DNA of 51,001 nt, from assembly GCF_000334895.1 (NCBI RefSeq), contig NZ_BAFM01000020.1:1-51001 (forward strand). The letters are read 5' to 3'. A program made the translations under genes and the position numbers. This DNA is from Halococcus agarilyticus. GTDB lineage: Archaea; Halobacteriota; Halobacteria; Halobacteriales; Halococcaceae. This document shows positions 1-28,652 of this stretch, in pieces. Under the pieces are notes generated by a model. That model was not told where the DNA came from. It saw nothing but the letters and a program-made list of their open reading frames with translations, and ran no database searches. Numbering within the stretch: the first letter of the stretch is position 1; each line of letters begins with the position of its first letter.

Positions 1-233
1 GCGAAGTCGAGGAACTCCACCGCGTCGGCCCCGAGCACCTCGCCGGACGCCCGGGCCTCGCGCTCGCGGACGTCGGCGATCTCGGCCTCGGTGTCGGCCC
101 CGAGACCGCCGTACTCGCCGCGGGTCATGTGGGCGATCGTCACCCTGTCGCCACGGGCCGCGTGCTTCGCGAGCGTTCCGCCACAGAAGATGTCGGCGTC
201 GTCCGGATGGGCGACGATCGCTACCACGTGCAT
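1..233 (-). CDS. PIG-L (LmbE) family deacetylase, N-terminal part
   Basis: Only the first 77 residues are in the window; the gene runs off the left edge. The start ATG is at 231-233. Residues 8-20 read AHPDDADIFCGGT, the zinc-binding AHPDD signature of the PIG-L/LmbE family of de-N-acetylases, followed by a typical THMTRGE-like turn (here AHMTRGEYG). Family members remove acetyl groups from N-acetylglucosaminyl compounds; haloarchaeal members also include bacillithiol-type or glycolipid deacetylases, so the substrate is open. It shares its strand with the SelA-fold enzyme just upstream (81 bp gap) and could be cotranscribed with it. An amino-sugar role would fit the neighbourhood, but that is inference. 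Confidence 0.85.
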   Translation of the reverse strand, partial: MHVVAIVAHPDDADIFCGGTLAKHAARGDRVTIAHMTRGEYGGLGADTEAEIADVREREARASGEVLGADAVEFLDF

Positions 234-314
234 ACCAAAGCGTGCGGAAACCGGCCACAAATAGATTGTGATCGATGAAGCGGTGGAAAAACTAGTTCCG
301 GCCGCGGCTCGACG

Positions 315-1523
315 CTACTCGACGTTCGCGACGATGCGATCGATCACGTACTCGGCCTCGCCCTCGTCGAGGCACATCGGATTCACGACGATTTCGCCGT
401 CGGGGAGGTCGTCGGTGCCGACGTACACCCGAGGGTCCTCGTCGCGGAGCGTGCGCGCGAGCTCGGTCGCGTCCATCCCCAGGTCGCTCGCCTCGACGTC
501 GACGACGACCTCCGGGGCGACACTCGTACCGTTGGGGCTCGTCACCCGTACGTCGAGCCCAGTTTCAGTGAGTCGCTCCGCCATCGCCTCAGCAGTATCG
601 ATCCAGTTCGCTTCGAGCCGGCCGTGATCCTCCTCGACGAACAGCTCGAGTGCACGGATCGCGCCGACGAGTTCTTCCTTCCCGACCTTCAGCGGCCGGC
701 CGATGCCCTGGCGTGGCACGCCGTCGAGCCGATCGCGGTCGATGAGATCGGTCGGCGGGTCCCAGAGGTCGTTCGCGACGTGCATGTCGAGGTGCTGGGC
801 CGCGATCGATTCGATGTACTCGCGCTTGCCCGCGACGAACCCGGTGGTCTGGGGCCCGCGGATCCCCTTCCCGCCGCTGAACACCACCATGTCCGCGCCC
901 GTCTCGACGAACCGCGAGAGGTTCTCGCGCGGCGGGACCTCGGCCGCAGCGTCCACGATCACCGGCACGTCGTTCTCGTGGGCGATCTCGACGACCGACG
1001 CCAGCGATGGCTGGGTGTAGGATTTCTGTATGTAGCCGACGGCGACCGTCTCGTCGGTGATCGCGCGATCGAGCTGCCACGGCTCGACGTCGGTCGCACC
1101 GGTGCCGAGGTGGCGGTCGTTGGTACCGACGTCGACGATCGTCGCGCCGGCAGTCCGGAACGCGTGGTCGTAACCCGTCCGGTGAGTGCGGGGCATGACG
1201 ATCTCGCTCGGCACATCGGACGTGTCCGGGAGGGCGTTCATCACGCCGACGTCGTGGCCCGCGATGGCGGCCGCCGCACACAGCAACAGCCCCGCGCTCG
1301 CACCGCTGGTGACGTAGCCCGCCTCCGCATCCGTGACGTCGGCGATCACCGTCGAGGCCCGCGCTTCGAGCTCGCCGATCTCGACGAACTCGTCGGCGGC
1401 CCGCCGCATGGCGTCGAGCGCCGCCGGTCGGATACGGCTCCCGCCGATACGGGTCTTCGTCCCCGCTGCGTTCACGACGGGCGTCACGTCCAGCTCGCGG
1501 TAAACGGAGTCGCCTTCGTACAT
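315..1523 (-). CDS. PLP-dependent SelA-fold enzyme (D-glucosaminate-6-phosphate ammonia-lyase-like)
   Basis: About 402 residues from the ATG at 1521-1523; an in-frame start 14 codons further upstream exists, but family homology begins with the VTPVVNAAGTKTRIGG stretch near residue 13. The fold-type-I PLP features are visible: VDAAAEVPP (Asp191, pyridine-nitrogen partner) and SGGKGIRGPQ (Lys219, Schiff base). The family is called L-seryl-tRNA(Sec) selenium transferase-like, yet many members are ammonia-lyases for amino-sugar acids such as D-glucosaminate-6-phosphate. No other selenocysteine gene is near, so a lyase role is more likely than SelA itself. With a PIG-L deacetylase next door and MurNAc genes 2 kb away, an amino-sugar-acid substrate is a reasonable inference. 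Confidence 0.75.
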   Translation of the reverse strand: MYEGDSVYRELDVTPVVNAAGTKTRIGGSRIRPAALDAMRRAADEFVEIGELEARASTVIADVTDAEAGYVTSGASAGLLLCAAAAIAGHDVGVMNALPDTSDVPSEIVMPRTHRTGYDHAFRTAGATIVDVGTNDRHLGTGATDVEPWQLDRAITDETVAVGYIQKSYTQPSLASVVEIAHENDVPVIVDAAAEVPPRENLSRFVETGADMVVFSGGKGIRGPQTTGFVAGKREYIESIAAQHLDMHVANDLWDPPTDLIDRDRLDGVPRQGIGRPLKVGKEELVGAIRALELFVEEDHGRLEANWIDTAEAMAERLTETGLDVRVTSPNGTSVAPEVVVDVEASDLGMDATELARTLRDEDPRVYVGTDDLPDGEIVVNPMCLDEGEAEYVIDRIVANVE

Positions 1524-1921
1524 CGTCCAACGATGTGCGCCCTCGCTGTCAGTAGTAATAATCATTGTGGTCAGATTGCTTCGGCACTAAACGGGCAAGT
1601 CACGCCCATCCCGGCCGCAGTTCTCGACTACTGCGACCGGCAGCGACAAAGCGATACGTCTCCACTACGAGCCGCTCGCTTCATATTTCACGTCTGTCTC
1701 TAGTGTTTGTAACCCAAGACGCTAATAGTTCTCACGATAATAGTGGTGATACAATCCGGGTAGATCGCGCTGAAACTGTGGATGGCCGATGTATGCGTCG
1801 ACAAATTCGGTTACCGGCGACGTTGCGATTCGACCGGCCATATCGTCGTCACCCACCTGGACCGCTTCGGTGCGTTGCAGTCGGCGGTGATCGTCGGCAA
1901 AACCCGAACGGGCTAAGCAAG
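1524..1921. other. Divergent intergenic region between SelA-like enzyme and HTH regulator
   Basis: About 400 bp without a supported gene. A long open frame runs through it into the regulator at 1922, but its composition (Arg/Ser/Thr-rich, no acidic bias) is unlike a haloarchaeal protein. It must carry the promoters of both flanking genes; an AT-rich stretch near 1681-1745 is the best candidate. No clear operator repeat was seen. Confidence 0.5.
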
Positions 1922-2863: not shown

Positions 2864-3466
2864 ATGTCCCGGACCAGACGAGACGCACTGAAGCGTATCG
2901 GCACGGTCGGCGCGGCCAGTCTCGGTGGAATCATCGCCGTCTCGGGAAGCGCGGCGGCGAAACCGAGCGTCGACTGGGAACCCGCTCACTCGAGCAACTA
3001 CGCGAGCGCGGACCGCGGCGCAGGTAAGATCGACTGGATCATCGTCCACACCGTACAAGGCTCGGCCCGCAGCGCGGTCAACTACTTCCAGGACCCCGAC
3101 GCCAACGTCAGCGCCCACTACACCGTCGCCGAGAATGGACACAGATATCAAAGTGTTAGCGACCTCAACATCGCCTACCACGCCGGGAAGTACGACTACA
3201 ACGAGTATTCGGTCGGGATCGAACACGGTGGCTACGTCAGCGGCACCTACGAAACCGTGCAGTACCAGTCTTCGGCCAAGATCACCAGTTGGCTTTGCGA
3301 CCAGTACGGTATCCCGAAACAGCATCCAGCAGACGTCCCGTACGACGCGGCGAATCCGGCCAACGGCGGCGTCATCGGCCACGAACAGGTGCCCGAAGCT
3401 ACCCACACCGACCCCGGGTCAAACTGGGACTGGAGCTACTACATGGACCTCGTCAGGTCGTACTGA
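2864..3466 (+). CDS. Tat-exported N-acetylmuramoyl-L-alanine amidase (Amidase_2 family)
   Basis: A 200-residue protein with an N-terminal twin-arginine signal (RTRRDALKRIG, then a small-residue hydrophobic stretch ending near AAA, residue 32). The mature part is an Amidase_2/PGRP-type domain: WIIVHTVQG (His62), SVGIEHGG (Glu120), GHEQVPEATHTDPG (His173 and Asp183), matching the zinc triad and catalytic Glu of AmpD-like amidases. The family cleaves the bond between MurNAc and L-Ala of peptidoglycan. Archaea lack murein, so the substrate must be foreign cell wall; this suits either antibacterial lysis or feeding on dead bacteria. A TATA-like ATCGTAAAAC lies near 2827. It sits just before the AnmK operon, supporting a shared theme. 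Confidence 0.88.
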   Translation: MSRTRRDALKRIGTVGAASLGGIIAVSGSAAAKPSVDWEPAHSSNYASADRGAGKIDWIIVHTVQGSARSAVNYFQDPDANVSAHYTVAENGHRYQSVSDLNIAYHAGKYDYNEYSVGIEHGGYVSGTYETVQYQSSAKITSWLCDQYGIPKQHPADVPYDAANPANGGVIGHEQVPEATHTDPGSNWDWSYYMDLVRSY

Positions 3467-3604: not shown

Positions 3605-4432
3605 ATGCACGATGGAACGGAGCATGCGGGTGATCTCGCCGGACGAACGGCCGTCGTCACCGGTGGAGCTGCCGGCATCGGCGAGTCGATCGCCAACCTG
3701 TTCGCCCGCGAGGGAGCGACGGTTGTCGTCGCGGACGTAGACGAGAAAGGCGGCGAATCGACGGTCGCAGCCATCGAGGACGCCGGCGGCACCGCCGCAT
3801 TCGTCCCAACCGACGTCACCGACGAACCGCAGGTCCGGAGCCTCGTCGAAACCACGACTGAACGGTTCGGCGGCCCCGACGTGCTCGTGAACAATGCGGG
3901 CGGCTCACTCGACGACGACAACCCCCACCAGGTGGACCGCGCGACTTTCGAACGCGTCGTCGAGCTCAACCTCACGGGGACGTTCCTGTGTACACGTGCG
4001 GTCCTCCCGCCAATGATAGCGGCCAGCGGGGGCGCGATAGTGCATATCTCCTCGATCAACGCCAACCTGGGCATCGGCCTCGCGGCCTACTCCGCTGCGA
4101 AAAGCGGCATCATTGCGCTTTCCCGACTCGTCGCCACCCAGTACGGCTGCCACGGCGTCCGTTCGAACGCATTGTGTCCAGGAACCGTCATTACCGACGC
4201 CTCCAGCCCCGCGCTCCGCGAGGGCAGCCCCGTCCGCGAACAGTGGCTCGATCAGTACCCGCTTGGTCGGTTCGGTCGGCCCGACGACGTGGCGGAGGCC
4301 GCGCTCTTTCTCGCCACCGAACGCGCCGCGTTCGTCACGGGCACGGAACTCGTCGTCGACGGGGGCTTCACCGCTGGTCCCGACGGAACCTTAGAGCGAG
4401 AGATGTACGATATCGGAACCGTCCCGCGATGA
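3605..4432 (+). CDS. SDR family NAD(P)-dependent oxidoreductase
   Basis: A 275-residue classical short-chain dehydrogenase. Visible motifs are TGGAAGIG (residues 19-26, dinucleotide binding), NNAG (96-99), the Ser of HISS (about 150), YSAAK (Tyr162/Lys166) and the PG turn after the active site. The acidic ADVDE end of beta-2 suggests NAD rather than NADP. The stop codon overlaps the anmK start as ATGA (4429-4432), so translation is likely coupled. In this operon a sugar or lactate-type alcohol is a plausible substrate, for example a muramic-acid derivative, but the sequence itself only supports 'SDR'. Confidence 0.9.
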   Translation: MHDGTEHAGDLAGRTAVVTGGAAGIGESIANLFAREGATVVVADVDEKGGESTVAAIEDAGGTAAFVPTDVTDEPQVRSLVETTTERFGGPDVLVNNAGGSLDDDNPHQVDRATFERVVELNLTGTFLCTRAVLPPMIAASGGAIVHISSINANLGIGLAAYSAAKSGIIALSRLVATQYGCHGVRSNALCPGTVITDASSPALREGSPVREQWLDQYPLGRFGRPDDVAEAALFLATERAAFVTGTELVVDGGFTAGPDGTLEREMYDIGTVPR

Positions 4433-5598
4433 CGGATCGGTACGCTATCGGATTGATGTCCGGCACCGCCCTCGACGGAATAGACGCCGCGTGCTGTCGG
4501 GTGCGCTGTGACGACACTGGTCCACTAGGCTACCAAGTCGCAGTCGAGGCGTTTCACACCGAGCCCTATCCGGCGGCGCTTCGTGCAACCCTCCGCGACC
4601 TCTGTGCCACCGAGGGTCGGGTTCCCGCCCTGTGTCGAATGAACGTGGCCCTCGGCGAGGTCTTCGCCGAGGCCGCAGAACGTGTCCGCGAGCGTGCGGG
4701 CCTCAGTACCGCGGAGATGACAGTGATCGGCAGCCACGGCCAGACCGTCTGGCACGCACCGGAGCCGAAGCCGGTTCCTGGCGCGGAGCCGGTTCGCGCG
4801 ACGCTCCAGATCGGCGACGGTGCGGTCGTCGCCGCTCGAACCGACGTTCCAACTGTTTCGGACTTCCGCGCCGGCGACGTGGCCGCCAGCGGGCACGGCG
4901 CGCCACTCGCACCGCTGCTCGATGCCACGCAGTTCGCCGGCGATCGGTCGCGTGCGCTGCAGAACGTTGGCGGTATCGGCAACTGCACGCTCGTCCCGCC
5001 GGAGCCGACCCTCGACGATCTCGTTGCTTTCGATACTGGCCCGGGCAATGTCGTCATCGACGCTGTGGTCGAGCGGATAACCGACGGGCGACGGACCTAC
5101 GACGAGGACGGTGAACTCGCTGCCCGAGGCACCGTGGACGACGGTCTCGTCGCACGACTGCTCGACGATGAGTACTTCGGACGAGCGCCGCCAAAAACCA
5201 CCGGCCGCGAATATTTTGATACGAAATACATCGATCGTTTTCTTAAGGAAGGACGCAATCGAAACCGTTCGGACGTGGACCTCGTCGCCAGCGCGACGGC
5301 ACTCACCGCCCGTTCTATCGCGGACGCATACGAGCGATTCTGTGACCCGTACCCAGATGAGGTGCTCGTCTCCGGCGGCGGCGCGAAAAATCCCGTGCTG
5401 ATGGAGATGCTCCGGGCGGCAGTCGATGCTCCGGTCGAGCGACTCGACGCCATCACCGGCTCCATGACCGGCGATCAAAAGGAGGCCGCTCTGTTCGCAC
5501 TGCTCGCAGTAATGCGACTCGATGGCGTTCCGAACAACGTTCCCGCCGCGACGGGAGCCGACCGACCCGTCGTGATGGGGAAGGTGAGTCGACCGTGA
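4429..5598 (+). CDS. anmK: Anhydro-N-acetylmuramic acid kinase
   Basis: A 389-residue member of the AnmK family (ASKHA fold). Diagnostic segments are all present: GLMSGTALDGIDAA at the N-terminus, SHGQTVWH, DFRAGDVAASGHGAPL (carrying the Asp that serves as likely catalytic base), NVGGIGN, FDTGPGN and VSGGGAKNP near the C-terminus. The bacterial enzyme opens 1,6-anhydro-MurNAc and phosphorylates it to MurNAc-6-phosphate during murein recycling. Here it starts inside the SDR stop codon and ends inside the HAD phosphatase start (GTGA), a tight operon. An archaeon has no murein of its own, so the kinase should serve scavenging. Specificity could have shifted; the motifs do not decide this. Confidence 0.92.
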   Translation: MTDRYAIGLMSGTALDGIDAACCRVRCDDTGPLGYQVAVEAFHTEPYPAALRATLRDLCATEGRVPALCRMNVALGEVFAEAAERVRERAGLSTAEMTVIGSHGQTVWHAPEPKPVPGAEPVRATLQIGDGAVVAARTDVPTVSDFRAGDVAASGHGAPLAPLLDATQFAGDRSRALQNVGGIGNCTLVPPEPTLDDLVAFDTGPGNVVIDAVVERITDGRRTYDEDGELAARGTVDDGLVARLLDDEYFGRAPPKTTGREYFDTKYIDRFLKEGRNRNRSDVDLVASATALTARSIADAYERFCDPYPDEVLVSGGGAKNPVLMEMLRAAVDAPVERLDAITGSMTGDQKEAALFALLAVMRLDGVPNNVPAATGADRPVVMGKVSRP

Positions 5599-8038: not shown

Positions 8039-9139
8039 CTATCGGTTCGTTGCGATCCCGTCCATCTCGTCACTGATCTCGTCGCTGTCCCAGTAGGCGT
8101 GATCATCCCGCTCGCGGAAGCACGCCGCTCGGTGTCCGTCGCCGAGCAGTTTCGGCTGCTCTCGACGACAGACGTCGCGGGCCTCGAGACAGCGTGTGTG
8201 GAACCGACAGCCCGATGGTGGGTCCGCTGGGTCCGGGATATCGATCTTGCGCACCGGTGGATCGCCTATCTCATCGGGCCGATCTAGGTCGGACGTCGCC
8301 CATAACAAGACCTTCGTATAGGGATGTTGCGGATCATTGATGACCTGCGTGACCGGGCCGATCTCGACGAGTTCGCCGAGATACATGATTCCGATCCGTC
8401 CGCCCGCCCGCTGCGTAATGTACTTTGCGTTCGAAAGGTCGTGTGAGATGAACAGATACGAGGTGTCGAACCGATCCTGTAGCTCGATCATGAGGTCCAT
8501 CATCTCGACTCGGAGCGAGACGTCTAATGCACTGATCGCCTCGTCGGCAAGGATGAGGTCGGGGTTCATCAACAGCGCGCGGATCAACGCGACACGTTGC
8601 TGTTCGCCACCCGAGAGCTGATGGGGGTACCGGGTCGCATAGTCCTCCGCCGGTGTCATCCCGACGTACTCCAAGAAGCCGAGGATTCGCTCCCGTCTGT
8701 CGCTGCGGTTCAAATCGGGCTCCCACTTCTTCAACGGGTCCGAGAGAATCGATTCGACGGTGTAGTTCGCGTTGAGCGAGCTTCCCGGATCCTGATGGAT
8801 CATCTGGAGTGAGCGCCTGATCTCGGCGAACGAAACCGCGTCCGGATCGTCATTGCCCCGGAAGAGCCCGCGGTCGTCTTTGGTCTCCCAGATGTCCTGG
8901 CCGCGATACGTGACGCGCCCGCCGGTCGGGCGCTGGACGCCGATGGCGGTCTTGCCGAGGGTCGTCTTCCCGCAACCGGACTCGCCGACGAGCGCGACGA
9001 CGTCGTTTTCGGGGATTGTGAGCGACACGTCGTCGACGGCGTGGACCGTCTCGGACCCCATCAGGCCGAAGAGCCGCTCGTTGTCGAAGTGCACCTCGAC
9101 GTTTTCGAGCGCGACGACGTGATCGGCGTTCGAGCTCAT
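8039..9139 (-). CDS. Oligopeptide/dipeptide ABC transporter ATPase (OppF/DppF type)
   Basis: About 366 residues from the ATG at 9137-9139, which overlaps the stop of the upstream oppD-like gene (ATGA). Walker A is GESGCGKTT, the signature is LSGGEQQR, Walker B ends in LADEAIS, and the C-terminus has the oligo_HPY domain with Cys-rich CRFHTRC...C...C segment common in Opp ATPases. A DPGSSLNANYT stretch is typical of OppF. It energises the two permeases upstream together with the OppD partner. In this locus the likely cargo is cell-wall peptide or muropeptide. Confidence 0.92.
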   Translation of the reverse strand: MSSNADHVVALENVEVHFDNERLFGLMGSETVHAVDDVSLTIPENDVVALVGESGCGKTTLGKTAIGVQRPTGGRVTYRGQDIWETKDDRGLFRGNDDPDAVSFAEIRRSLQMIHQDPGSSLNANYTVESILSDPLKKWEPDLNRSDRRERILGFLEYVGMTPAEDYATRYPHQLSGGEQQRVALIRALLMNPDLILADEAISALDVSLRVEMMDLMIELQDRFDTSYLFISHDLSNAKYITQRAGGRIGIMYLGELVEIGPVTQVINDPQHPYTKVLLWATSDLDRPDEIGDPPVRKIDIPDPADPPSGCRFHTRCLEARDVCRREQPKLLGDGHRAACFRERDDHAYWDSDEISDEMDGIATNR

Positions 9140-10206
9140 GATTGTTCGGTGGTAGCGACGTCGAGGGGTACCCGCTGCCGAGCGTCCTCCCAGTGGTGAC
9201 ACGCCGCGACGTGGTCGTCCCCAACGTCATGGAACGACGGGTTCTCGCTTCGACACTTCGCGTCTGCCAGCGGGCAGCGCGGGTGATAGGAGCACCCTTC
9301 CGGAACGTCGACCGGGTCCGGACTGGCCCCTCCGACGGACGTGATGTCCTCCGGCGATGCCTTGAGGTTCGGGACCGAGTTCAACAGTGCACGCGTGTAG
9401 GGGTGGGAGGCGTCGGCGAGGAGTTCGCGGGTCGGGCCGATCTCTGCGACCTCGAACGCGTACATCACCGCGAGCCGATCGGCGATGTTGGCCACCAGCG
9501 GCATGTCGTGAGTGACGAACACCAGCGTCAGGTCGTACTTGGTTTTGATCTCTTGGAGCAGGCTGACGATCGAACGCTGCATCAACAGATCGAGCGCCGC
9601 CGTCGGCTCGTCCATCACCAGCACATCCGGTTCGAGGAGGAGACTGAGTGCGATCAGCGCGCGCTGTTTCATCCCGCCGGAGAGCTCATCAGGGTACGAT
9701 CCGAATATCAGTTCGGGATCGAGATAGAGGTCCGAAAGGAGGTCACGGACGTGTTCGAGCCCGGCGTCGACGTCACGATCGTGCGCTCGGAGTGTCTCGA
9801 CGAAGTGTGTCCGGACGTTCATCGTCGGATTGAACGCACTCTGAGCGCCCTGTATAGCGAAGGAGATCTCCTCCCACCAGAGTTCCCTGAGCTCTTGTCG
9901 GCCCGCGGTAACGACATCGATCGGTTCGCCATCAGCCGGGTAGTACATCACCGTTCCCGAAACCTGCCCGGGGGCGACAACGGCGTTGAGCAGCGACGAG
10001 GCGAGCATCGACTTGCCGCTGCCGCTCTCGCCGACGATCCCGAGGACCTCTTCGCGATAAACGTCGAAGCTGACGTCGTTTACGACCCTCGACTCGCCAC
10101 GGGCCGTCTCGAAACTCACCGCGATGTCGCGTACTTCGAGGACGACATCGGTCTCGTCGGGGGGTCCGACGTCCGTCCCGCTTCCGTGGTGGATTGATTC
10201 GCTCAT
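9136..10206 (-). CDS. Oligopeptide/dipeptide ABC transporter ATPase (OppD/DppD type)
   Basis: About 356 residues from the ATG at 10204-10206. Walker A is GESGSGKSM, the signature LSGGMKQR, Walker B VLVMDEPTAALD, and the C-terminal oligo_HPY region holds YHPRCPLADAKC. FNPTMNVRTHF matches OppD's FNPV-like segment. The stop overlaps the start of the OppF gene, so the two ATPases are translationally coupled. A possible TATA (GGGTTTATTG on the minus strand, near 10250) suggests the pair also has its own promoter. Confidence 0.92.
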   Translation of the reverse strand: MSESIHHGSGTDVGPPDETDVVLEVRDIAVSFETARGESRVVNDVSFDVYREEVLGIVGESGSGKSMLASSLLNAVVAPGQVSGTVMYYPADGEPIDVVTAGRQELRELWWEEISFAIQGAQSAFNPTMNVRTHFVETLRAHDRDVDAGLEHVRDLLSDLYLDPELIFGSYPDELSGGMKQRALIALSLLLEPDVLVMDEPTAALDLLMQRSIVSLLQEIKTKYDLTLVFVTHDMPLVANIADRLAVMYAFEVAEIGPTRELLADASHPYTRALLNSVPNLKASPEDITSVGGASPDPVDVPEGCSYHPRCPLADAKCRSENPSFHDVGDDHVAACHHWEDARQRVPLDVATTEQS

Positions 10207-10389
10207 GTCTGAATCTCGCTTCAGCGTTACTCGACCGTCCCGGTGCCGGAACAATAAACCCGTCGGTGGTTTCGGGGACACCGATCACGGAGCACCGCCG
10301 TGGCTCTCGGCGGCCGGCGATATCTCGACGGTCTTGATGGGATAGATTATGAACGATCGGCGAACGGTCGGGGCGGGGGTCGTCCGCGA

Positions 10390-11421
10390 TCAGTCGCCGG
10401 CTTCGCTTTTCGGTTCGTCGCTAGCGACAGTTCGCGCGTGCCGGGCGCGAAGCTGGACATTGAACACCCGGTCGAGCCCCTGTGAAGCCAGGATGAACCC
10501 GAGCGACAGGACGATGATGGCGACCATCGGGACGAGGATGACGTACAGCTTCGTGGGATCAGTGAGGCTGATATTCTCGTAGGCCTCGTTCAACATCACG
10601 CCCCAGTTCAACGTCGTGAACGGCAGGATACCAAGAAAGTACAGCGCGACCGACTCGAAGATGATCCGCCGGGCGCTGTTCGCGAAGTTGATCGAAATGT
10701 ACGGCATCAGATTGGAGATCACGTCCTTTCGGAGCAGCGTCGCCTCGCTGAGACCCATGATGCGCGAGGCCTCGGTGAACGCCTCCTCCCGGATCGAGAG
10801 GACCTGCGAGCGGATTGTGCGCGAGAGCCGCGGCCAGTTGTCGATACCGAGGATAAGACCGACGAGGACCGGATCCTCGGGCCGGTAGATCGCAGCCAGC
10901 ACGACGATCAACGCGAGACCCGGAATCGTCAGCACGAGGTCGGTGAACCCCATCAACGCCGTGTCCAGTCGTCCCCCTTTGTAGCCAGCGACCGTGCCGA
11001 TGAGAGTCCCGATGCCGGTCGAGAGAAGCGCACCAGCGAGGATCATCTTCAACATCGACGGCGCGGAGTGGACGACCTGTGCGAACAGGTCCTTCCCGAG
11101 ACCGCCAGTACCCAGCGGGTACTCCAACGTTCGAAACGGCTGCTGGAAGATCGGTCCCTCCATCGTCTGTGGTGGCTCGACGAGCACGACCCCGACGGTC
11201 GCCATCAAAACGAACCCAGCGACGATCGTCCCGCCGATCAGCGTCCGGGTGTCCTCGACGGCCACCGCGAGCGGGGCGTAGACGTGCGCGTCGAGCGCGT
11301 GCCTGAGGCGATTGGTCCGAGAACTATCAGTTACTCTGGATGTTCGTGTGAAGAGATCGTCCTCGACCGGCGAGCCGCCGTCGGTTTCGGTGTCGTTGGC
11401 GGGACTATCAGTACGACTCAC
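10390..11421 (-). CDS. ABC transporter permease (OppC/DppC type)
   Basis: A polytopic permease of about 343 residues; a GTG start at 11419-11421 is chosen because a GGGGGTG stretch sits just before it, with another GTG at 11428-11430 possible. Helix 1 lies near residue 60-80, and the conserved EAA-type loop with EEAFTEASRIMGLSEATL binds the ATPases. LGTGGLGKDLFAQVVHS is an OppC hallmark (LGTDxxGRD). The start overlaps the end of the oppB-like gene, indicating an operon. Confidence 0.9.
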   Translation of the reverse strand: MSRTDSPANDTETDGGSPVEDDLFTRTSRVTDSSRTNRLRHALDAHVYAPLAVAVEDTRTLIGGTIVAGFVLMATVGVVLVEPPQTMEGPIFQQPFRTLEYPLGTGGLGKDLFAQVVHSAPSMLKMILAGALLSTGIGTLIGTVAGYKGGRLDTALMGFTDLVLTIPGLALIVVLAAIYRPEDPVLVGLILGIDNWPRLSRTIRSQVLSIREEAFTEASRIMGLSEATLLRKDVISNLMPYISINFANSARRIIFESVALYFLGILPFTTLNWGVMLNEAYENISLTDPTKLYVILVPMVAIIVLSLGFILASQGLDRVFNVQLRARHARTVASDEPKSEAGD

Positions 11422-12436
11422 GGTTAGCACCCCCTTCGACCCGTGGGTCGATGATGCCGTAGGTCAGGTCAGCGACGAGAATGCCAAGCAGCGTGATCGC
11501 ACTGAAAAAGATAAACGCACCCATGAGGAGTGGGTAGTCCCGATCCAACAGCGCGTTGAACGTCACAAACCCCATCGCCCGGTAGTTGAAGATCTGTTCG
11601 AGAATGATGCTACTGCCGAACACCGATGCAACCCCCAACATCAACGTGGTGTAGATCGGCAGCAGCGCGTTCCGCCCCACGTACCGGATGGCGATGCGGC
11701 CCTGACTCAGTCCACGGAGTCGCGCGAGGCGGAGGTAGCCTTTCCCCATCTCGCGCACACAGTTACCGCGGTACGCCAACGCCCCCCCGAAGCCGGCGAC
11801 GAAACTCGACAGGACCGGCAACGCCGCGTGCTCGACGACACCGGCGATGAACGGCCAGTTCAGGCCTGGCGCTGTTCCCGGCGTCATCTTTCCCCCCGTC
11901 GGGAGCCATTCGAGTTGGAAGGCAAATACAATGAGCACGAGAATCGCCACGATGTAGTACGGCACGGTCTGGGTCAGCGTGCTCACGACGGTCAGACCCG
12001 TATCGAAGCTGCTCCCTTCCTTGTACGCCATGATCGCCCCGAGCAGCAGACTGATCGTCGTGCCGAGTGCGAGCCCGTAGACGCTGATGAAGACGGACCA
12101 CGGCATCGCCTCGAAGAGTACCTCGAAGACGGGTTCTTGGAGCACGATCGAGGTCCCGAAGTCAGCGTGCAACAACACGCCCTCCATGTAGCTGAGATAC
12201 TGCTGGAACAACGGCGCGTCCGGCTGGATGTTGGTAAGCGTCTCGACTTGCTGGTTGATCTGTTCGATCTGTGCCCGCGAGAGACTCTGCCCGCTCTTTT
12301 GATACTCGGATTGCAGCTGGCTTTTCATCTGCTCAACCGGGCCGAACGGCATCAGCCGGTACATCCCGAACGTCACTGTGACCGTCGAGAGGAAAACGAC
12401 GATCGTTTGAGCGATACGTTTGACGTAGTATGACAT
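11408..12436 (-). CDS. ABC transporter permease (OppB/DppB type)
   Basis: A 342-residue permease starting MSYYVKRIAQTIVVF, the usual OppB N-terminal helix. It has an extended periplasmic insertion (Gln-rich, residues about 45-85), then five further helices and an EAA-like loop around GKGYLRLARLRGLSQGRI. The start is supported by a TATA box (AACTTATAC on the minus strand, 12461-12469) about 25 nt upstream. It is the first gene of the permease/ATPase run. Confidence 0.9.
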   Translation of the reverse strand: MSYYVKRIAQTIVVFLSTVTVTFGMYRLMPFGPVEQMKSQLQSEYQKSGQSLSRAQIEQINQQVETLTNIQPDAPLFQQYLSYMEGVLLHADFGTSIVLQEPVFEVLFEAMPWSVFISVYGLALGTTISLLLGAIMAYKEGSSFDTGLTVVSTLTQTVPYYIVAILVLIVFAFQLEWLPTGGKMTPGTAPGLNWPFIAGVVEHAALPVLSSFVAGFGGALAYRGNCVREMGKGYLRLARLRGLSQGRIAIRYVGRNALLPIYTTLMLGVASVFGSSIILEQIFNYRAMGFVTFNALLDRDYPLLMGAFIFFSAITLLGILVADLTYGIIDPRVEGGANRESY

Positions 12437-12624
12437 AGACGGGAATAAGCAGAAGCGATGGTATAAGTTTACCGGCAAGCATCGCGAGAGGTCGGATCAG
12501 GTGAAATCTACACCCCGGTCTCGGAATCGAGTCCGAGCACGGACCATATCCGGTCGGCGATCCTCGGGTTCGTCGGTGCAGATAGGCAAACTCGAAACCC
12601 GCCGAACGAAGGCGTCGGGTATAG

Positions 12625-13066: not shown

Positions 13067-15055
13067 TCACTCCGTTTTGGCGCTGACATGGCCCTGCCAC
13101 ACCTGGATAGCGTCCTCGTTCGGAATGGTGTGTTCGCGTGCGGTCCGATCGGTTTCGGGGTGGTTCTGTTTGAATGTGAACTTGTCCGTTCGGCCCCACG
13201 ACTGCCAGACTTCCTCGTAGAGGCCGATGTGCGGGACCTGCCAATTGTAGTACCACGAGAGCTTCCGAGCGATTTTTGCGACCTCTTCTTTGTTCTGACC
13301 CTGACTCAGCTGCTGGTTCCACTGAAGCGGATAGAGCGTCTGTCCCTCATCCGAAACCGTCTTCGATCCGACTTTCGTCGGGAACTGTGGCCGGATCGGC
13401 TGGTTGAGCCGCTGGGTTCGCTTCGCGTTCAGCTTCGGGGGCTCGTCGGTCGACAGACTTCCCTCGACGGCGGGCCGCATCGTGTCGAACCCTGTTGGCG
13501 ATCCCTCGCCGACGTAGTAGTTGTTCGCCGGATGGAACCCGAAGTGATACCAGTTGAGCAGGTCGAACTCGTAGGACTCGTTGAGACGCTTATAGAAGTT
13601 GGCCGAGGAGGGCTGGACGGTCTCGATGCCGAGACCGAAGTCGGTGAGCACCGGACCGAGGTACTGCTGGATGCTCTGGTAGATCGGCCACGGTGGCGTG
13701 ATGTACGTCAGTCCGTCGACCTTGTTGCCGTCTGGTCCAACCCAGAACTTACCGTTTTTCGAATAGCCCGCGTTCTGCATCGCCTGACGTGCTTTCTCGG
13801 GCTGTGAACTGCTGCCGTAGTTCAGGAGTTTGTTTAGGTGGTCGGTGCCGAGCCAGTCTTTGCCGATCTCAGAGGACATCCCGTTGATGTGCGGGTGGCT
13901 CTTGTATGGCGTTCCGTGGTTGGCCTTCAGGACCTGTCGCAGCTGGTCGTGGTCGATCAAATGCGCGATCGCCCGGCGGACTCCGCGGCGTCCAAGGTGT
14001 TTGTTGCCGAAGTTGATCGTCAGCTTTGGCACACCGGGGAGCCCCATCCGCCAGACGGGCTCGTAGATGTCGGACTCGCTGACGAGATCGAAGTTGATTT
14101 CGCCCATGTCGAACTGACCGCTCTTGAATGCCTGGTCGAACTTCTGGTCGCCGCCGACGAGCTCCCAGATCCAGGTGTCGAGGTTCGTCCAGTCGGCCCG
14201 CGGATGGTCCCCGTACTTCGTGTAAGTGACGCGCTGTGGGTTCCACTCCTCCGGTTTCCACAGCGAACAGCCGAGACCTTCATCGACGAACTTCTCCATC
14301 GAGATCTGGTGTTGGGTCAGGTCCTGGGTGACTGCGTCGATTTCCTCCTGACTCCCGGCCTCCCTGTAGCGTTTGAGCCATCGCCGGTAGTAATCGGCCT
14401 TGGTGTACATCGCCTGTACGTGACTGAGGAGCCGGAAGGACGGGTTTATCGGGTTGTCGCGGATCTCCCTGACCGTGTGATCGTCCACCTTTTCGAGCGT
14501 CACGTCGGCCTCCTCGAGGGAGCCGAACTGCTGGAACATATCGATCCGGCGCTGAACCAGATAGTCATCCGCGGTGAGGTCCGTTCCGTCCCACCAACTG
14601 TATCCGTCGTTGAAACGGAATATGATCTCCTTTCCGTCGTCGTTGAACTCGACGTCCTCGATGGTGTGGTAGGTTATCTGGCCGCTACTGTTCCGGTAGA
14701 GGGTCCCCTCGGTCCAGAGGTACGTCGAAAACGGTGGCTGGTTGCCCGTTGGTGAGAAGAAATTGAAGTTCGTATTGCTGGGTTCCCATGCACCGAAGTG
14801 GGTCTTGATCTCCGTCGTCACCGGTTTTCCCTGCCCCTGGCCGGATGTCTGACTTCCGCTCCCGGTCGCGTTGCCGGACGAGCCGCCAGTTCCGGTTTCC
14901 GCACCGCCACCATTACCCGACGAGTTCGTCCCGCTGTCGCCGCTACATCCAGCGAGACCGCCGATGGACGCGGCAGTCGACAGCTCTAGGACTCGCCGGC
15001 GGGAGAAACGATACGAACGATTGCTGTCCGCTTTCGATTTGTTGCCGTCTGCCAT
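13067..15055 (-). CDS. Extracellular solute-binding protein family 5 (OppA/DppA type), Tat lipoprotein
   Basis: A 662-residue lipoprotein. Residues 15-37 combine a twin-arginine motif (FSRRRVLEL) with a lipobox LAGC (Cys37), followed by a long Gly/Ser/Thr linker to about residue 80. The body fits SBP family 5: the DGKEIIFRFNDGYSWWDGTDLTA-type segment and the later DHDQLRQV region are typical. A TATA box at 15080-15088 lies 25-33 nt before the ATG. It is the receptor of the importer encoded downstream, with namZ immediately upstream on the same strand. Peptides, muropeptides or oligosaccharides are possible ligands, since family 5 proteins bind all of these. Confidence 0.92.
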   Translation of the reverse strand: MADGNKSKADSNRSYRFSRRRVLELSTAASIGGLAGCSGDSGTNSSGNGGGAETGTGGSSGNATGSGSQTSGQGQGKPVTTEIKTHFGAWEPSNTNFNFFSPTGNQPPFSTYLWTEGTLYRNSSGQITYHTIEDVEFNDDGKEIIFRFNDGYSWWDGTDLTADDYLVQRRIDMFQQFGSLEEADVTLEKVDDHTVREIRDNPINPSFRLLSHVQAMYTKADYYRRWLKRYREAGSQEEIDAVTQDLTQHQISMEKFVDEGLGCSLWKPEEWNPQRVTYTKYGDHPRADWTNLDTWIWELVGGDQKFDQAFKSGQFDMGEINFDLVSESDIYEPVWRMGLPGVPKLTINFGNKHLGRRGVRRAIAHLIDHDQLRQVLKANHGTPYKSHPHINGMSSEIGKDWLGTDHLNKLLNYGSSSQPEKARQAMQNAGYSKNGKFWVGPDGNKVDGLTYITPPWPIYQSIQQYLGPVLTDFGLGIETVQPSSANFYKRLNESYEFDLLNWYHFGFHPANNYYVGEGSPTGFDTMRPAVEGSLSTDEPPKLNAKRTQRLNQPIRPQFPTKVGSKTVSDEGQTLYPLQWNQQLSQGQNKEEVAKIARKLSWYYNWQVPHIGLYEEVWQSWGRTDKFTFKQNHPETDRTAREHTIPNEDAIQVWQGHVSAKTE

Positions 15056-15196
15056 GACTCCCGTGGAGTACGACAGGCTCTTAAATCTTGGGGGGACCGG
15101 AGTCAGTAGAATCACGCAAATTCACACCCCGCTACTGTCACGATCCCGGCTCGAAGAGAGAGGTTCGAGATCGAGCGTTGACTGTGAGGCAACCGA

Positions 15197-16372
15197 TCAG
15201 TCAGTGCCGTACAGGAGATGCTGACTGCGCGTCTCGGTGAACGCTGTCTCGTCGCTTTCCCAGTCGTCCCGGACATCGCCGAGCAGTTCGTGCGGATCGA
15301 CGTCAGCCCCTCCGGCGTCGATCCTCTTCCGAAGATACTCTCCTCCCGCTAGCTTGTCCACGAAGTAGTCGTCGTCCATCGTCAGCCAGTCGCATTCCGG
15401 ATACGTAGCGAACGCAGAGGCGAGCATCGTGATCCCCACTGCGACGGGATCGGCGGCGTCGCGATCGAGAATGTGAACGTGCACGCCCTCGATGTCCTTA
15501 CGCTCGTGTTTCGAGAACGTCGGGGTGAAGTACGCTGGCCGGAACCCGATCCCATCGAGGTCAAGTTCGTTCAGCGACGCGGACCACTCCTCGGCGTCGA
15601 TCCACGGTGCGCCGACGAGCTCGAAGGGCTTGGTGGTGCCACGACCCTCCGAGAGCGTCGTCCCTTCGAAAAAACAGGTGCCGGGATAGATCGTCGCCGT
15701 CGTCAGCGTCGGCATGTTCGGTGAGGGATGGATCCACGGAAGCCCCGTCTCGTCGTACCACTCCCCCCGGGACCACCCCGAGAGTTCGACAACGTCGAGA
15801 TCGGCACCGATTTCATACTCCGCGTTGAAATATCGGGCGAGTTCGCCGACGGTGAGGCCATGAACGATAGGAAGACCGTAGCCGCCGACGAACGATTCGA
15901 CATCGCTGCTGATGCGGTTGCCGCGCACGGAGAGTGGGGCGATCGGATTCGGCCGGTCGAGCACCATGATTCGGGTATCCGTTCCCGCAGTTCCCTGCAG
16001 CGCGTACGCGAGCGTGTAAATGAGCGTGTAAAACCGCGAGCCGATGTCCTGTAGATCGTACACAACGGTGTCGAGTTCCGCGACCGACGCCGGCCGTAGC
16101 TGGCGGTCGTCGCCGTAGAGGCTCTTCACGGGAAGTCCGGTCTGTTCATCGATACTGTCTTCGACCTTCACGCCGGCCTGTTTGCTGCCACGGATCCCAT
16201 GCTCCGGGCCAAACAGCTGGCGGAGATCAACGTCTTCGGCCGCGTGAAGCAAGTCAGTCGTGGGAGTCAGGTTCGAATCGACGCCGGACGGGTTCGTGAT
16301 CAGCCCGACGCGTTCGCCCGTGAGCGTGCTATGCTCTCGGTCCATGAGGTTTTCTATGCCAAGACGGACCAT
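15197..16372 (-). CDS. namZ: DUF1343 / NamZ-type exo-beta-N-acetylmuramidase (GH171)
   Basis: A 391-residue protein of the DUF1343 family, whose characterised bacterial member NamZ removes non-reducing MurNAc from murein fragments. Hallmarks are GLITNPSG (23-30), LFGPEHGIRG (53-62, with the conserved Glu57-His58), YDLQDIGSRFYT (105-116), LDRPNPI and SPNMPTL. No signal peptide or lipobox is visible, so unlike many bacterial members it should act in the cytoplasm on imported fragments. The ATG at 16370-16372 is chosen because a TATA box (CTTATATGG, 16394-16402) would start transcription right there; an upstream ATG at 16411 would lie before the TATA box. Confidence 0.88.
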   Translation of the reverse strand: MVRLGIENLMDREHSTLTGERVGLITNPSGVDSNLTPTTDLLHAAEDVDLRQLFGPEHGIRGSKQAGVKVEDSIDEQTGLPVKSLYGDDRQLRPASVAELDTVVYDLQDIGSRFYTLIYTLAYALQGTAGTDTRIMVLDRPNPIAPLSVRGNRISSDVESFVGGYGLPIVHGLTVGELARYFNAEYEIGADLDVVELSGWSRGEWYDETGLPWIHPSPNMPTLTTATIYPGTCFFEGTTLSEGRGTTKPFELVGAPWIDAEEWSASLNELDLDGIGFRPAYFTPTFSKHERKDIEGVHVHILDRDAADPVAVGITMLASAFATYPECDWLTMDDDYFVDKLAGGEYLRKRIDAGGADVDPHELLGDVRDDWESDETAFTETRSQHLLYGTD

Positions 16373-16492
16373 ACGCTCATTTCTCAGGCCAATCCATATA
16401 AGCGTGCGCATCGGCTGCCGTCGATGTGATTTTAGTCATACTGAAATGGGCTGTGACAGAAACTACTTATCTCTCGATGGTGAACATCACGT
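16373..16492. promoter_or_regulatory. Divergent promoter region with a candidate operator
   Basis: The 120 bp between namZ and the gene at 16493 hold two outward TATA boxes: CTTATATGG (minus strand, 16394-16402) and ACTTATC (plus strand, about 16465-16471). Between them, 16431-16446 reads TTTAGTCATACTGAAA, an imperfect palindrome (TTT-AGT / ACT-g-AAA). The IclR gene two genes away is a natural candidate to bind it. The TATA boxes are direct observations; operator function is inferred. Confidence 0.45.
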
Positions 16493-17680
16493 ATGCCTAC
16501 TGTCTGGACCTATCCGTGGTCTCTGGTTTCCGAAGGCATCGACTCGGCCTGCGATCGTCTGTCGGCCTGCGGGGTTGACGAGCTTCGCGTCGCCAGTCAC
16601 TACCACTCGATACGCACCCTCGATCCGCGGGCAGACCCTCCCAGCTTCACTGCTTACCCCGGTGGTTGCTACTTCACGCCCGACCCCGAATCGTTCGACA
16701 CCATCGTTCCGCCGGTCAACGAAATCGCAGAAAGCACGGACCCGCTCGCGGACGTGACGGCAGCGGCCGCCGAACACGGTCTTTCGGTCAATGCGTGGTG
16801 TGTCTGCTTGCATAACACCCGCCTCGGCAGCGAATATCCCGAGTACCGTCTGCAGAGTGCGTTCGGTCAACACCACGACCACGCGTTCTGCCCATCATAT
16901 CCCGAGGTCCGGGAGTACTTCACCTCGGTTGTTCGATCACTCGCGGAGTACGACATCGACGCCATTAACCTCGAATCGCTGGGGTTTCAAACGATTTTCC
17001 ACGAGCACGGTCCCGAGTTCGGTCACTCGAAACAGCAGGCAGTTGGTGGACGAACCACCGAAATGTTATTTTCGCAGTGTTTCTGTCGGGCTTGCCGCGA
17101 GCGTGCTCGTGACCATTCCGTCGACTTCGAGCGTGCACGGAGGCTCGTCCGTGACTGCTGCCGCGAGGCACTCAACAGTACCGAATGGCGGCAATCGCTC
17201 GCATCGCTGACCGCCGAATACCCCGTCCTCGCGGAGCTTTTCGATTTCCGCGCAGCCGTCATCGAGGATATGGTTGCCGATCTCGCAGCCGCCAGCGGTG
17301 CTGTCAACCTTGACTACTCAGTCGCGGATGGGTTCGGTCGCAGCCCAGGCGATGGCTGGCCGGCAGGCGTCGACCTCGATCGTCTCGAACCCCATCTCGA
17401 CGCCCTCACTGCGCTCTGTTACGTGAGTGATCCCGAACTGGCCGAGGATCGCGTGCGCGCGTTCGACGAACGCTTCGACCTCCCAGTGAACGCGGGTATC
17501 TCCCTCGACCCCGATCTGGTTGGTTCACGGGCGGAATGGGAGACGATCGTCTCTCGGGTCCGCGGGGCAGGGGCCAACGTAGCCGTATACAACTCCGGGT
17601 TGATGACCAACGAACACCTGGACTGGCTGCGCGACTCCTTCGGTGCGAATCGGGCAGAGAACCTCGAAGCCTACGAATAA
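16493..17680 (+). CDS. Uncharacterised protein, possible TIM-barrel glycosidase-like
   Basis: A 395-residue soluble protein without signal peptide. It starts MPTVWTYPWSLV and alternates strands and helices in a way that suggests a (beta/alpha)8 barrel (GVDELRVASHYHS, LSVNAWCVCLHN, DIDAINLESLGF, LTALCYVSDPE, PVNAGISLDP). A CFCRACRERA segment near residue 197 resembles the Cys-x-Cys-x2-Cys insert seen in some putative glycosidase families. Strand-end residues such as NLES could carry catalytic acids. It is divergent from namZ across a shared promoter and ends 10 bp inside the convergent IclR gene, so it belongs to this locus. The activity is not known; a cytosolic glycosidase for GlcNAc-containing fragments is one possibility. 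Confidence 0.75.
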   Translation: MPTVWTYPWSLVSEGIDSACDRLSACGVDELRVASHYHSIRTLDPRADPPSFTAYPGGCYFTPDPESFDTIVPPVNEIAESTDPLADVTAAAAEHGLSVNAWCVCLHNTRLGSEYPEYRLQSAFGQHHDHAFCPSYPEVREYFTSVVRSLAEYDIDAINLESLGFQTIFHEHGPEFGHSKQQAVGGRTTEMLFSQCFCRACRERARDHSVDFERARRLVRDCCREALNSTEWRQSLASLTAEYPVLAELFDFRAAVIEDMVADLAAASGAVNLDYSVADGFGRSPGDGWPAGVDLDRLEPHLDALTALCYVSDPELAEDRVRAFDERFDLPVNAGISLDPDLVGSRAEWETIVSRVRGAGANVAVYNSGLMTNEHLDWLRDSFGANRAENLEAYE

Positions 17681-18438
17681 GCCAGCTTCAGCTCGATAAC
17701 ATTCGTCGCATTGTGGAGGGATTCGACGTACTCCCTACTAGTTTCAGTATCGCTGAAACGCTGAACCGGTCCGGATATACCCAGCGCGCCAAGAATTTTC
17801 CCCGTCTCGGCCCGCACTGGGGCAGCGATGCAGGCGATGCCATTCACGCGCTCTTCCAGGTCGTATGCGATACCCTGCTCACGAATGGTCTCGATCTCCG
17901 CAAACAGCGTTTCCCGGTCAGTAATGGTGTTCTCGGTGCAAGATACGAGCCCGTTCGAATCGACGATCCTCTCGATGTGTTCGTCGGGCAATCCAGCGAG
18001 GATACACTTTCCGAGAGCTGTCGTGTGCAAACGAACGCGTTTCCCGACACGGATGTCCAGCGGAACTGCATCAGGTCCGTCGACCGAACAGATATAGACG
18101 CCGAATTCGGCCTCTTCGACGACGAGACTCGCGACTTCACCCGTCGTCTCAGCTATGTCTTCGACTTCCGAGTAGCCGACATTGTAGAGCCTCCGACGGC
18201 TCCGGGTGTACTCACCGAGGTCGAGGAATCGAAGACTCAGCCGATAGTTGTCGCCCTCGCGCACGACGTACCCGCACTTGATCAGCGTCATGAGGTGGTT
18301 GTAAGCGGTACTGTTCGGTAGATTACAGGCCGTTGCGACTTCGGTCAGGCGGGCACCATCAAGCTCACGAAGAGTTTCAACGATAGCGAAGGAACGACGC
18401 GTAGACTCGATCGAGCCGGACCAAGAGTCTTCAGTCAT
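17671..18438 (-). CDS. IclR-family transcriptional regulator
   Basis: A 255-residue regulator with an N-terminal winged HTH (residues about 8-70; ACNLPNSTAYNHLMTLIKCGYV is the recognition helix region) and a C-terminal IclR effector domain (HTTALGKCILAGLP, then GIAYDLEERVNGIACIAAPVR). Its end overlaps the convergent gene by 10 bp. TATA-like sequences lie at about 18450-18480. IclR proteins usually control a neighbouring catabolic operon in response to a small acid or sugar, so namZ and its divergent partner are the likely targets. Confidence 0.9.
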   Translation of the reverse strand: MTEDSWSGSIESTRRSFAIVETLRELDGARLTEVATACNLPNSTAYNHLMTLIKCGYVVREGDNYRLSLRFLDLGEYTRSRRRLYNVGYSEVEDIAETTGEVASLVVEEAEFGVYICSVDGPDAVPLDIRVGKRVRLHTTALGKCILAGLPDEHIERIVDSNGLVSCTENTITDRETLFAEIETIREQGIAYDLEERVNGIACIAAPVRAETGKILGALGISGPVQRFSDTETSREYVESLHNATNVIELKLAYS

Positions 18439-27662: not shown

Positions 27663-28652
27663 ATGTCGTCAGAGACCGCAGAAAGCGAAGCGATGAGACG
27701 GTTCAGAGAACGAGATCTCAAATACGACGAGGAAAACGAATTCAACAGGCAGTTCAGTTATTCGCCTGCGATTGGGTTGGGGGAAGAAGAGGGTGTGAGC
27801 CGCCGCGACCCATCCAGCGTCGTTCGGGTCGGGTCGACCTACTACGTCTGGTACACCAAGGTGGAGGGCCCAAGCGTCGGCATCGAACACGCCACCGAGG
27901 AACTACCGGCACGGACGTGGGACCTCGCAGATGTCTGGTATGCGACCTCCGAGGACGGGCACTGCTGGACCGAACAGGGAAAAGCCGTCGAACGCGGCGG
28001 ACTGGAGTTCGACGAACGGAGCGTGTTCACACCCGATATTCTGGTAGCGAACGATCGATACTACCTGTTCTACCAAGCGATATCGGACCACTACTATCGA
28101 TCGACCCAAAACGTCGTTGCGATGGCTTCCGCGGAGTCCCCTGACGGCCCGTGGGAGAAAGAGTCTGAGCCGATCTTGGAAGCAGGCGAGGGGCCGAGCA
28201 AGTGGGATCGACAAGCCCAGAAAAACCACGACCCAGGGCCTCTGAAACTGGATGGTCAGTATCTCCTCTACTACAAAGGGACCGTCGTAACTGAAGGCCA
28301 ATCGAACCAGAGACGGCCCCAGTGGGGAGTCGCAGTCGCGGATGACCCCAGTGGACCATACGAAAAGTCGGAGCTGAATCCGGTGACGAACAGCGGCCAC
28401 GAGACACACGTGTGGCGACACGGAGACGGCGTAGCCGCCCTGATCACTCGTGATGGTCCGGAGAAAAACACGATCCAATACGCCTCCGATGGGCTGAATT
28501 TCGTTCCAAAGGCGAATATTCGTGACCCGCCGATCGCGGGTGGTCCATACCGGCCAGAAGTGGCTGACGGCGAAGATATCGAACGGATGTCGTGGGGGCT
28601 CTCGCACGAACCATGGGGGACGTGGCCTCACATCGTCCGGTTCGACTGTTGA
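27663..28652 (+). CDS. GH117-like glycoside hydrolase (five-bladed propeller), copy 1
   Basis: A 329-residue cytosolic protein, preceded by a clear Shine-Dalgarno-like TGGAGGT just before the ATG. The sequence SRRDPSSVVRVGSTYYVWYTK, then blade-like repeats VWYATSEDGHCWTE, TPDILVANDRYYLFYQA, GPWEKESEP, KNHDPGPLKLDG and GHETHVW are characteristic of the GH43/GH117 beta-propeller clan; the overall pattern is closest to GH117, whose known members are alpha-1,3-(3,6-anhydro)-L-galactosidases that split neoagaro-oligosaccharides. A close paralogue lies at 41406-42404 on the other strand. No signal peptide, so it should act on imported oligosaccharides. GH43-like is the fallback. Confidence 0.72.
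   Translation: MSSETAESEAMRRFRERDLKYDEENEFNRQFSYSPAIGLGEEEGVSRRDPSSVVRVGSTYYVWYTKVEGPSVGIEHATEELPARTWDLADVWYATSEDGHCWTEQGKAVERGGLEFDERSVFTPDILVANDRYYLFYQAISDHYYRSTQNVVAMASAESPDGPWEKESEPILEAGEGPSKWDRQAQKNHDPGPLKLDGQYLLYYKGTVVTEGQSNQRRPQWGVAVADDPSGPYEKSELNPVTNSGHETHVWRHGDGVAALITRDGPEKNTIQYASDGLNFVPKANIRDPPIAGGPYRPEVADGEDIERMSWGLSHEPWGTWPHIVRFDC

Follow-up and report, generated by a model that had tools for sequence, protein, structure and literature searches.

A predicted exported amidase linked to a probable murein-feeding island in haloarchaea

Results

A predicted exported amidase in a murein-free host

A stretch of 51,001 nucleotides from Halococcus agarilyticus (hereafter, the window; contig C20 of the genome coded G000) encodes an Amidase_2 protein that is probably the exported opening enzyme of a system for feeding on murein. 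We observed the genes and their families, the conserved catalytic residues of the amidase, its linkage to genes for murein uptake and catabolism, and the co-occurrence of these genes across haloarchaea. Archaea such as the window organism have no murein.

The amidase gene is an intact ORF starting at ATG, and its product is a single-domain protein: across the 200 aa, Pfam gave Amidase_2 alone (residues 54–185; E 4.5e-27, 95.4 bits against a cut-off of 26), and this match is not due to chance. It is the sole Amidase_2 gene of the source genome, which is 98% complete. Contamination was rejected as its source, since the gene is intact and single in this genome and copies with 55–79% identity are found in other haloarchaea. 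The residues H62 (in IIVHT), E120 (GIEHGG), H173 (VIGHEQ) and D183 (THTDPG), together with H181, were invariant across 11 aligned haloarchaeal amidases, the window copy counted. H62, H173 and D183 are the predicted zinc ligands and E120 the predicted catalytic residue, and the numbering given for them in the preliminary description was correct. The N-terminus contains the sequence TRRDALK, followed by a hydrophobic stretch and an AAA site, judged by eye to be a Tat-type signal. The twin arginine (R5–R6) was invariant in the same alignment, in agreement with the Tat signal proposed earlier.

The closest solved structure by sequence was AmpD (1j3g, E 2.7e-6), and AmpD was also the top match of the predicted fold (2y2c, E 8.5e-8), from a low-confidence model (pLDDT 63) that informs the fold only. 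However, the protein scored only 56 bits against the AmpD NCBIfam equivalog (cut-off 143), and we therefore refer to it as an exported AmpD-like amidase rather than as AmpD. The Pfam match, the conserved catalytic set and the AmpD fold match are consistent with the earlier view of an active-looking secreted murein amidase whose producer has no substrate of its own.

Genes surrounding the amidase

The features of the window bearing on this system are listed in Table 1.

Table 1. Coordinates and assignments of the amidase and neighbouring genes in the window
Position	Strand	Assignment	Evidence
3..260	-	PIG-L/LmbE deacetylase, truncated by contig end	recurs in islands
315..1565	-	DgaE/SelA-like PLP enzyme (D-glucosaminate-6-P ammonia lyase family, under equivalog cut-off)	
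2864..3466	+	predicted exported Amidase_2/AmpD-like N-acetylmuramoyl-L-alanine amidase	Pfam, alignment, fold
3605..4432	+	SDR dehydrogenase, glucose 1-dehydrogenase subfamily (recurrent family F4)	NF005559, 238.7 bits, cut-off 215
4429..5598	+	AnmK, anhydro-N-acetylmuramic acid kinase	PF03702, E 1.6e-95; NF007148
5595..6251	+	HAD-IB family phosphatase	family profile, position
8039..9202	-	Opp/Dpp-type ABC ATPase	sequence; homologues in islands
9136..10281	-	Opp/Dpp-type ABC ATPase	sequence; recurs in islands
10390..11430	-	ABC permease	sequence; recurs in islands
11408..12478	-	ABC permease	sequence; recurs in islands
13067..15115	-	exported lipoprotein-like solute-binding protein, SBP_bac_5 (oligopeptide/MppA class)	
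15197..16411	-	NamZ exo-beta-N-acetylmuramidase	PF07075, E 3.6e-78; PF20732, E 1.9e-47
16493..17680	+	family F1, Pfam-negative, predicted GH-type TIM barrel	structure model
17671..18438	-	IclR-family regulator	recurs in islands

About 140 bp downstream of the amidase gene, on the same strand, lies an SDR-AnmK-HAD operon, the genes of which overlap by 4 bp (ATGA at the SDR stop/AnmK start and GTGA at the AnmK stop/HAD start) and are thus translationally coupled. A TATA-like element (GTATAAG) upstream of the SDR ATG suggests that this operon has a promoter of its own, and we therefore do not claim that the amidase is co-transcribed with it. AnmK passes both the Pfam cut-off (320.7 bits versus 24) and that of the NCBIfam equivalog NF007148 (422.1 versus 387). 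However, in a sequence search of the PDB, levoglucosan kinase (5e-69) ranked slightly ahead of the AnmK structures (1.2e-59), and this is the chief doubt about a murein substrate; the co-occurrence with NamZ described below, in turn, favours murein. The position of the HAD gene suggests that its product is a putative MurNAc-6-phosphate phosphatase with a MupP-like role. At the contig end, the DgaE/SelA-like enzyme possibly catalyses an amino-sugar acid step. Its gene adjoins that of the PIG-L deacetylase, a pairing that recurs in some islands, and the two enzymes could provide a route from GlcNAc to 2-keto-3-deoxygluconate.

The solute-binding protein of the Opp/Dpp-type importer is a candidate for binding a muropeptide or murein sugar. 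Both Pfam domains of NamZ scored above their cut-offs (262 and 162.3 bits); no signal peptide was seen, so this enzyme is taken to be cytoplasmic, and its real start is probably MVRLGIE, inside the listed ORF. The model of F1 (pLDDT 81) was a glycosidase-like TIM barrel with Cwp19 as its top fold match (E 5.5e-12, 11% identity). However, F1 had no GHL10 Pfam match and no signal peptide, and its profile match to Cwp19 was not significant (E 0.21), so the Cwp19-like assignment is only a lead. The region from 20653 to 50978 of the window, with genes named from their sequences, resembles a glycan-use region; it includes KatG, three enolase-superfamily enzymes, two paralogous hydrolases (27663–28652 and 41406–42404), sulfatase-like, fucosidase-like and GH2-like genes, and a sugar ABC importer.

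Distribution of the island

In profile searches of 391 haloarchaeal genomes, all from one class, 15 carried AnmK and 16 carried NamZ. NamZ accompanies AnmK in every one of the 15 (Fisher p=3.6e-26, kinship ignored), and the two genes are less than 20 kb apart in every genome with both. Those congeners of the window genome that were sampled have neither. Around the 16 NamZ loci, the recurrent island comprises NamZ (16/16), AnmK (15, by profile), F1 (14) and IclR (13), and further recurrent members are the SDR, HAD, Opp parts, GH3 and creatininase, with some islands devoid of the SDR or of an MR_MLE (enolase superfamily) enzyme. Named plasmid records place NamZ on replicons of 219–816 kb, and in some genomes (G276, G026) NamZ lies on the largest contig. 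Named cultured carriers of the island are Halorussus limi, H. aquaticus, H. vallis and H. halophilus, Haladaptatus salinisoli, Natrialba swarupiae, Haloprofundus marisrubri and Natrononativus amylolyticus.

GHL10 exceeded its cut-off in four genomes only, three of which carry AnmK, with the GHL10 gene near the island; both GHL10 proteins whose N-termini were examined have Tat-like signals. Islands may thus differ in which exported murein-cutting enzyme they have recruited. No GH25 muramidase was found in the carriers, and no shared operator was evident by eye in the stretches upstream of island genes. The haloarchaeal AnmK proteins formed one clade (support 100/99), a topology that fits one acquisition from bacteria and later transfer or loss; the bacterial neighbour in this tree gave no credible donor.

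Linkage and origin of the amidase

On plasmids of H. limi, H. aquaticus and H. vallis, an amidase 72–76% identical to the window copy has its place within the island between the AnmK and NamZ genes; the order is HAD, amidase, serine hydrolase, F1, NamZ and nagZ. This gene order is unlike that of the window, and the association of the amidase with the island has therefore either outlasted rearrangement or arisen more than once. Amidase_2 was found in 10 of the 15 AnmK genomes and in 40 of the 376 others (p=9e-7, kinship ignored). The island of Haladaptatus salinisoli has no amidase, and in several AnmK-free haloarchaea the short amidase stands alone, with housekeeping genes around it; its association with the island is therefore not universal. 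A congener without AnmK or NamZ (G208) encodes an exported Amidase_2 protein, an M23 protein and a glucosaminidase in a row, adjoined by M55, a DAP-decarboxylase-like gene, an SBP and NlpC/P60. The hydrolases of this congener (L214, 6406–8886) had no SH3 Pfam match though they are SH3-like in sequence, and a filter for modular enzymes may miss them.

In our tree, where long branches meet, the haloarchaeal Amidase_2 proteins formed one group, weakly supported. The best bacterial matches were from Actinomycetota, at about 44% identity. The phylogeny that had been proposed for locating a bacterial donor thus placed none.

Candidate murein-peptide genes

Further candidate genes lie on C30, a separate contig of the same genome, and we do not claim that it joins the window; absent functions in this genome were judged family by family. 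This contig encodes a NagZ-type GH3 along with a GH18, a creatininase, an MR_MLE enzyme and a serine hydrolase. The NagZ-like GH3 exceeded the NCBIfam NF003740 cut-off of 207 (232.9 bits), as did that of genome G273 (224.5 bits). The peptide genes encode a DUF1611/DgcN-like protein, a Dpp importer, an M55 D-aminopeptidase, an NlpC/P60 protein with SH3 and a DAP decarboxylase, which may simply serve lysine synthesis. The peptide genes also include one for an MR_MLE enzyme that is closest to L-Ala-D/L-Glu epimerase, under the cut-off. NlpC/P60 was found in 10 of the 15 AnmK-positive genomes and in 16 of 341 others (p=1.6e-9, kinship ignored), in a sample slightly different from that of the other searches.

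C30 of this murein-free archaeon also encodes an exported PBP4/DacB-type carboxypeptidase above the TIGR00666 cut-off and, adjoining the DAP decarboxylase gene, a second DacB-like stretch (L179, 13945–15441, and L167, 8857–10254). For the second stretch, the reading frame searched gave no family match, and the gene may be frame-broken. In genomes without AnmK, genes for DAP decarboxylase, NlpC/P60, epimerase-like MR_MLE and serine hydrolase are clustered (L216, 1036–7898; L217, 4664–7839), with DacB present in L216 as well, suggesting that a separate murein-peptide cluster exists in AnmK-free genomes.

Discussion

Proposed pathway

For the murein-feeding system, we infer export, substrate, order of steps and growth benefit as follows. 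Outside the cell, the amidase would cut the MurNAc-L-Ala bond, freeing stem peptides from the glycan, and the fragments would be imported by the SBP_bac_5/Opp-type transporters. In the cytoplasm, NamZ would take off MurNAc and NagZ would take off GlcNAc. The Cwp19-like protein could form 1,6-anhydro-MurNAc; AnmK would open and phosphorylate any formed, and the HAD enzyme would then strip the phosphate from the product. The stem peptides would pass to the NlpC/P60 protein, M55 D-aminopeptidase, L-Ala-D/L-Glu-epimerase-like enzyme and DAP decarboxylase encoded on C30. The breadth of the HAD, SDR and importer families counts against this reading.

No MurQ (MurNAc-6-P etherase) scored above its cut-off in any of 16 genomes, in which there were just short matches under it. 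The standard route of MurNAc degradation is therefore incomplete at cleavage of the lactyl ether. We know of no evident use for UDP-MurNAc in archaea. MurNAc might instead be degraded by a MurQ-free oxidative route, the members of which recur in the islands. AnmK and the HAD phosphatase would yield MurNAc, the C1 of which would be oxidised to the acid by the SDR of the glucose 1-dehydrogenase subfamily; the MR_MLE enzyme would abstract the C2 proton and eliminate the 3-O-lactyl group; and RidA-, creatininase- or PIG-L-type enzymes would clear the nitrogen, leading to 2-keto-3-deoxygluconate and the Entner-Doudoroff pathway. These steps are jointly unlikely to hold.

Alternative explanations

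Cutting murein can kill bacteria, and killing may be a by-product of feeding. Feeding could also take the form of predation, in which live cells are killed by the hydrolases and their breakdown products eaten. The three exported murein hydrolases of G208, which differ in bond specificity and lie beside murein-peptide enzymes, fit such a lyse-and-eat strategy, and Woldo-type enzymes do kill (Strock et al. 2025, PMC12352652). However, the window strain has just one exported amidase at the locus, and such an enzyme may by itself be unable to lyse intact cells. We therefore hold this sub-case of the feeding reading only tentatively.

The preliminary description considered use as a weapon and use in feeding to be both plausible. 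The adjacency of AnmK, the Opp importer and NamZ, the Halorussus islands and the enrichment of Amidase_2 in AnmK genomes strengthen the latter, and this linkage favours feeding over a pure weapon. If the amidase were secreted mainly to kill rival bacteria, the nearby catabolic genes would be coincidental or secondary, but linkage to murein uptake and catabolism recurs, and no antibacterial or immunity-like gene was found among the neighbours. Peptidoglycan hydrolases of Halogranum salarium kill Halalkalibacterium halodurans (PMC12352652), but those enzymes are modular, whereas the amidase, at 200 aa, has no wall-binding domain. Its patchy distribution, its plasmid location and its solo short copies in AnmK-free genomes would suit a weapon, a reading that we nevertheless judge quite unlikely.

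It is very unlikely that the sugar genes act on a different 1,6-anhydro sugar, such as levoglucosan, or on generic glycans, the amidase being an unrelated neighbour. The PDB ranking of AnmK and the many further glycan genes in the window point that way, but AnmK passes its equivalog cut-off, the muramidase family NamZ is present in every AnmK carrier, and NagZ, the amidase and GHL10 recur with AnmK. Lastly, Amidase_2 is a common endolysin fold, but it is scarcely credible that the gene serves lysis by an integrated archaeal virus or encodes a phage endolysin, and the latter was rejected as the origin of the amidase: the phage matches are weak (identity of about 33% at most, covering two thirds of the sequence), the N-terminus bears a Tat-type signal, the gene neighbours are metabolic, and archaeal hosts have no murein.

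If murein feeding is correct, archaea in brines would draw nutrients from bacteria by an additional path, and the absence of MurQ hints at chemistry yet to be described. The island offers concrete genes and named cultured carriers for the question, raised in the 2025 report of bacterial killing, of whether bacteria are rivals or food.

Comparison with known systems

Sets of genes for murein recycling and utilisation are known in Bacillus subtilis (murQRP-amiE-nagZ-namZ and ykf/dpp). The haloarchaeal genes share with them NamZ, NagZ, an amidase or serine hydrolase, NlpC/P60, an epimerase-like MR_MLE, M55 and a Dpp importer. They differ in the murein-free archaeal host, the lack of MurQ, the replacement of the MurP-MurQ route by AnmK, the IclR regulator and the cytoplasmic NamZ. 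Zinc amidases of the AmpD/AmiD/PGRP type share the Amidase_2 fold and catalytic set with the window protein, and AmpD is the best match by both sequence and fold; nevertheless, AmpD is cytoplasmic, whereas the window protein has a Tat-type signal, and their identity is only 28–32%.

Archaeal murein hydrolases exist, and some kill bacteria, among them Woldo from Halogranum salarium (Strock et al. 2025, PMC12352652). The enzymes of that survey resemble the amidase in being exported murein hydrolases of bacterial type with a Tat signal, patchily distributed and often plasmid-borne, although Woldo is of the M23 type. The survey was defined by a catalytic and a wall-binding domain within one protein, and the single-domain amidase thus falls outside it. 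The survey notes an enrichment of OppBCDF-MppA, leaves open the choice between killing and scavenging, and, in the sections consulted, reports no linkage to AnmK, NamZ or NagZ. MupG-like archaeal proteins have been deemed unlikely to act on murein fragments, since archaea lack murein (PMC6262408), and we found no description of an AnmK-NamZ-NagZ island in archaea in the open-access literature.

Cwp19 of Clostridioides difficile, a lytic transglycosylase of the GHL10 type, generates 1,6-anhydro-MurNAc ends (PMC6016235). It resembles F1 in fold, and true GHL10 proteins lie in or near three islands; F1 itself differs from Cwp19 in the low identity and in the missing GHL10 match and signal peptide given above. 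In Pseudomonas, which has no MurQ, the HAD enzyme MupP dephosphorylates the AnmK product (PMC5371407). The islands share AnmK, a HAD-family phosphatase and the absence of MurQ with this anabolic recycling, but their host is an archaeon without a known use for UDP-MurNAc, and the HAD enzyme is only putatively MupP-like. The component families are known, and it is their MurQ-less assembly into a probable archaeal murein-utilisation island that is new.
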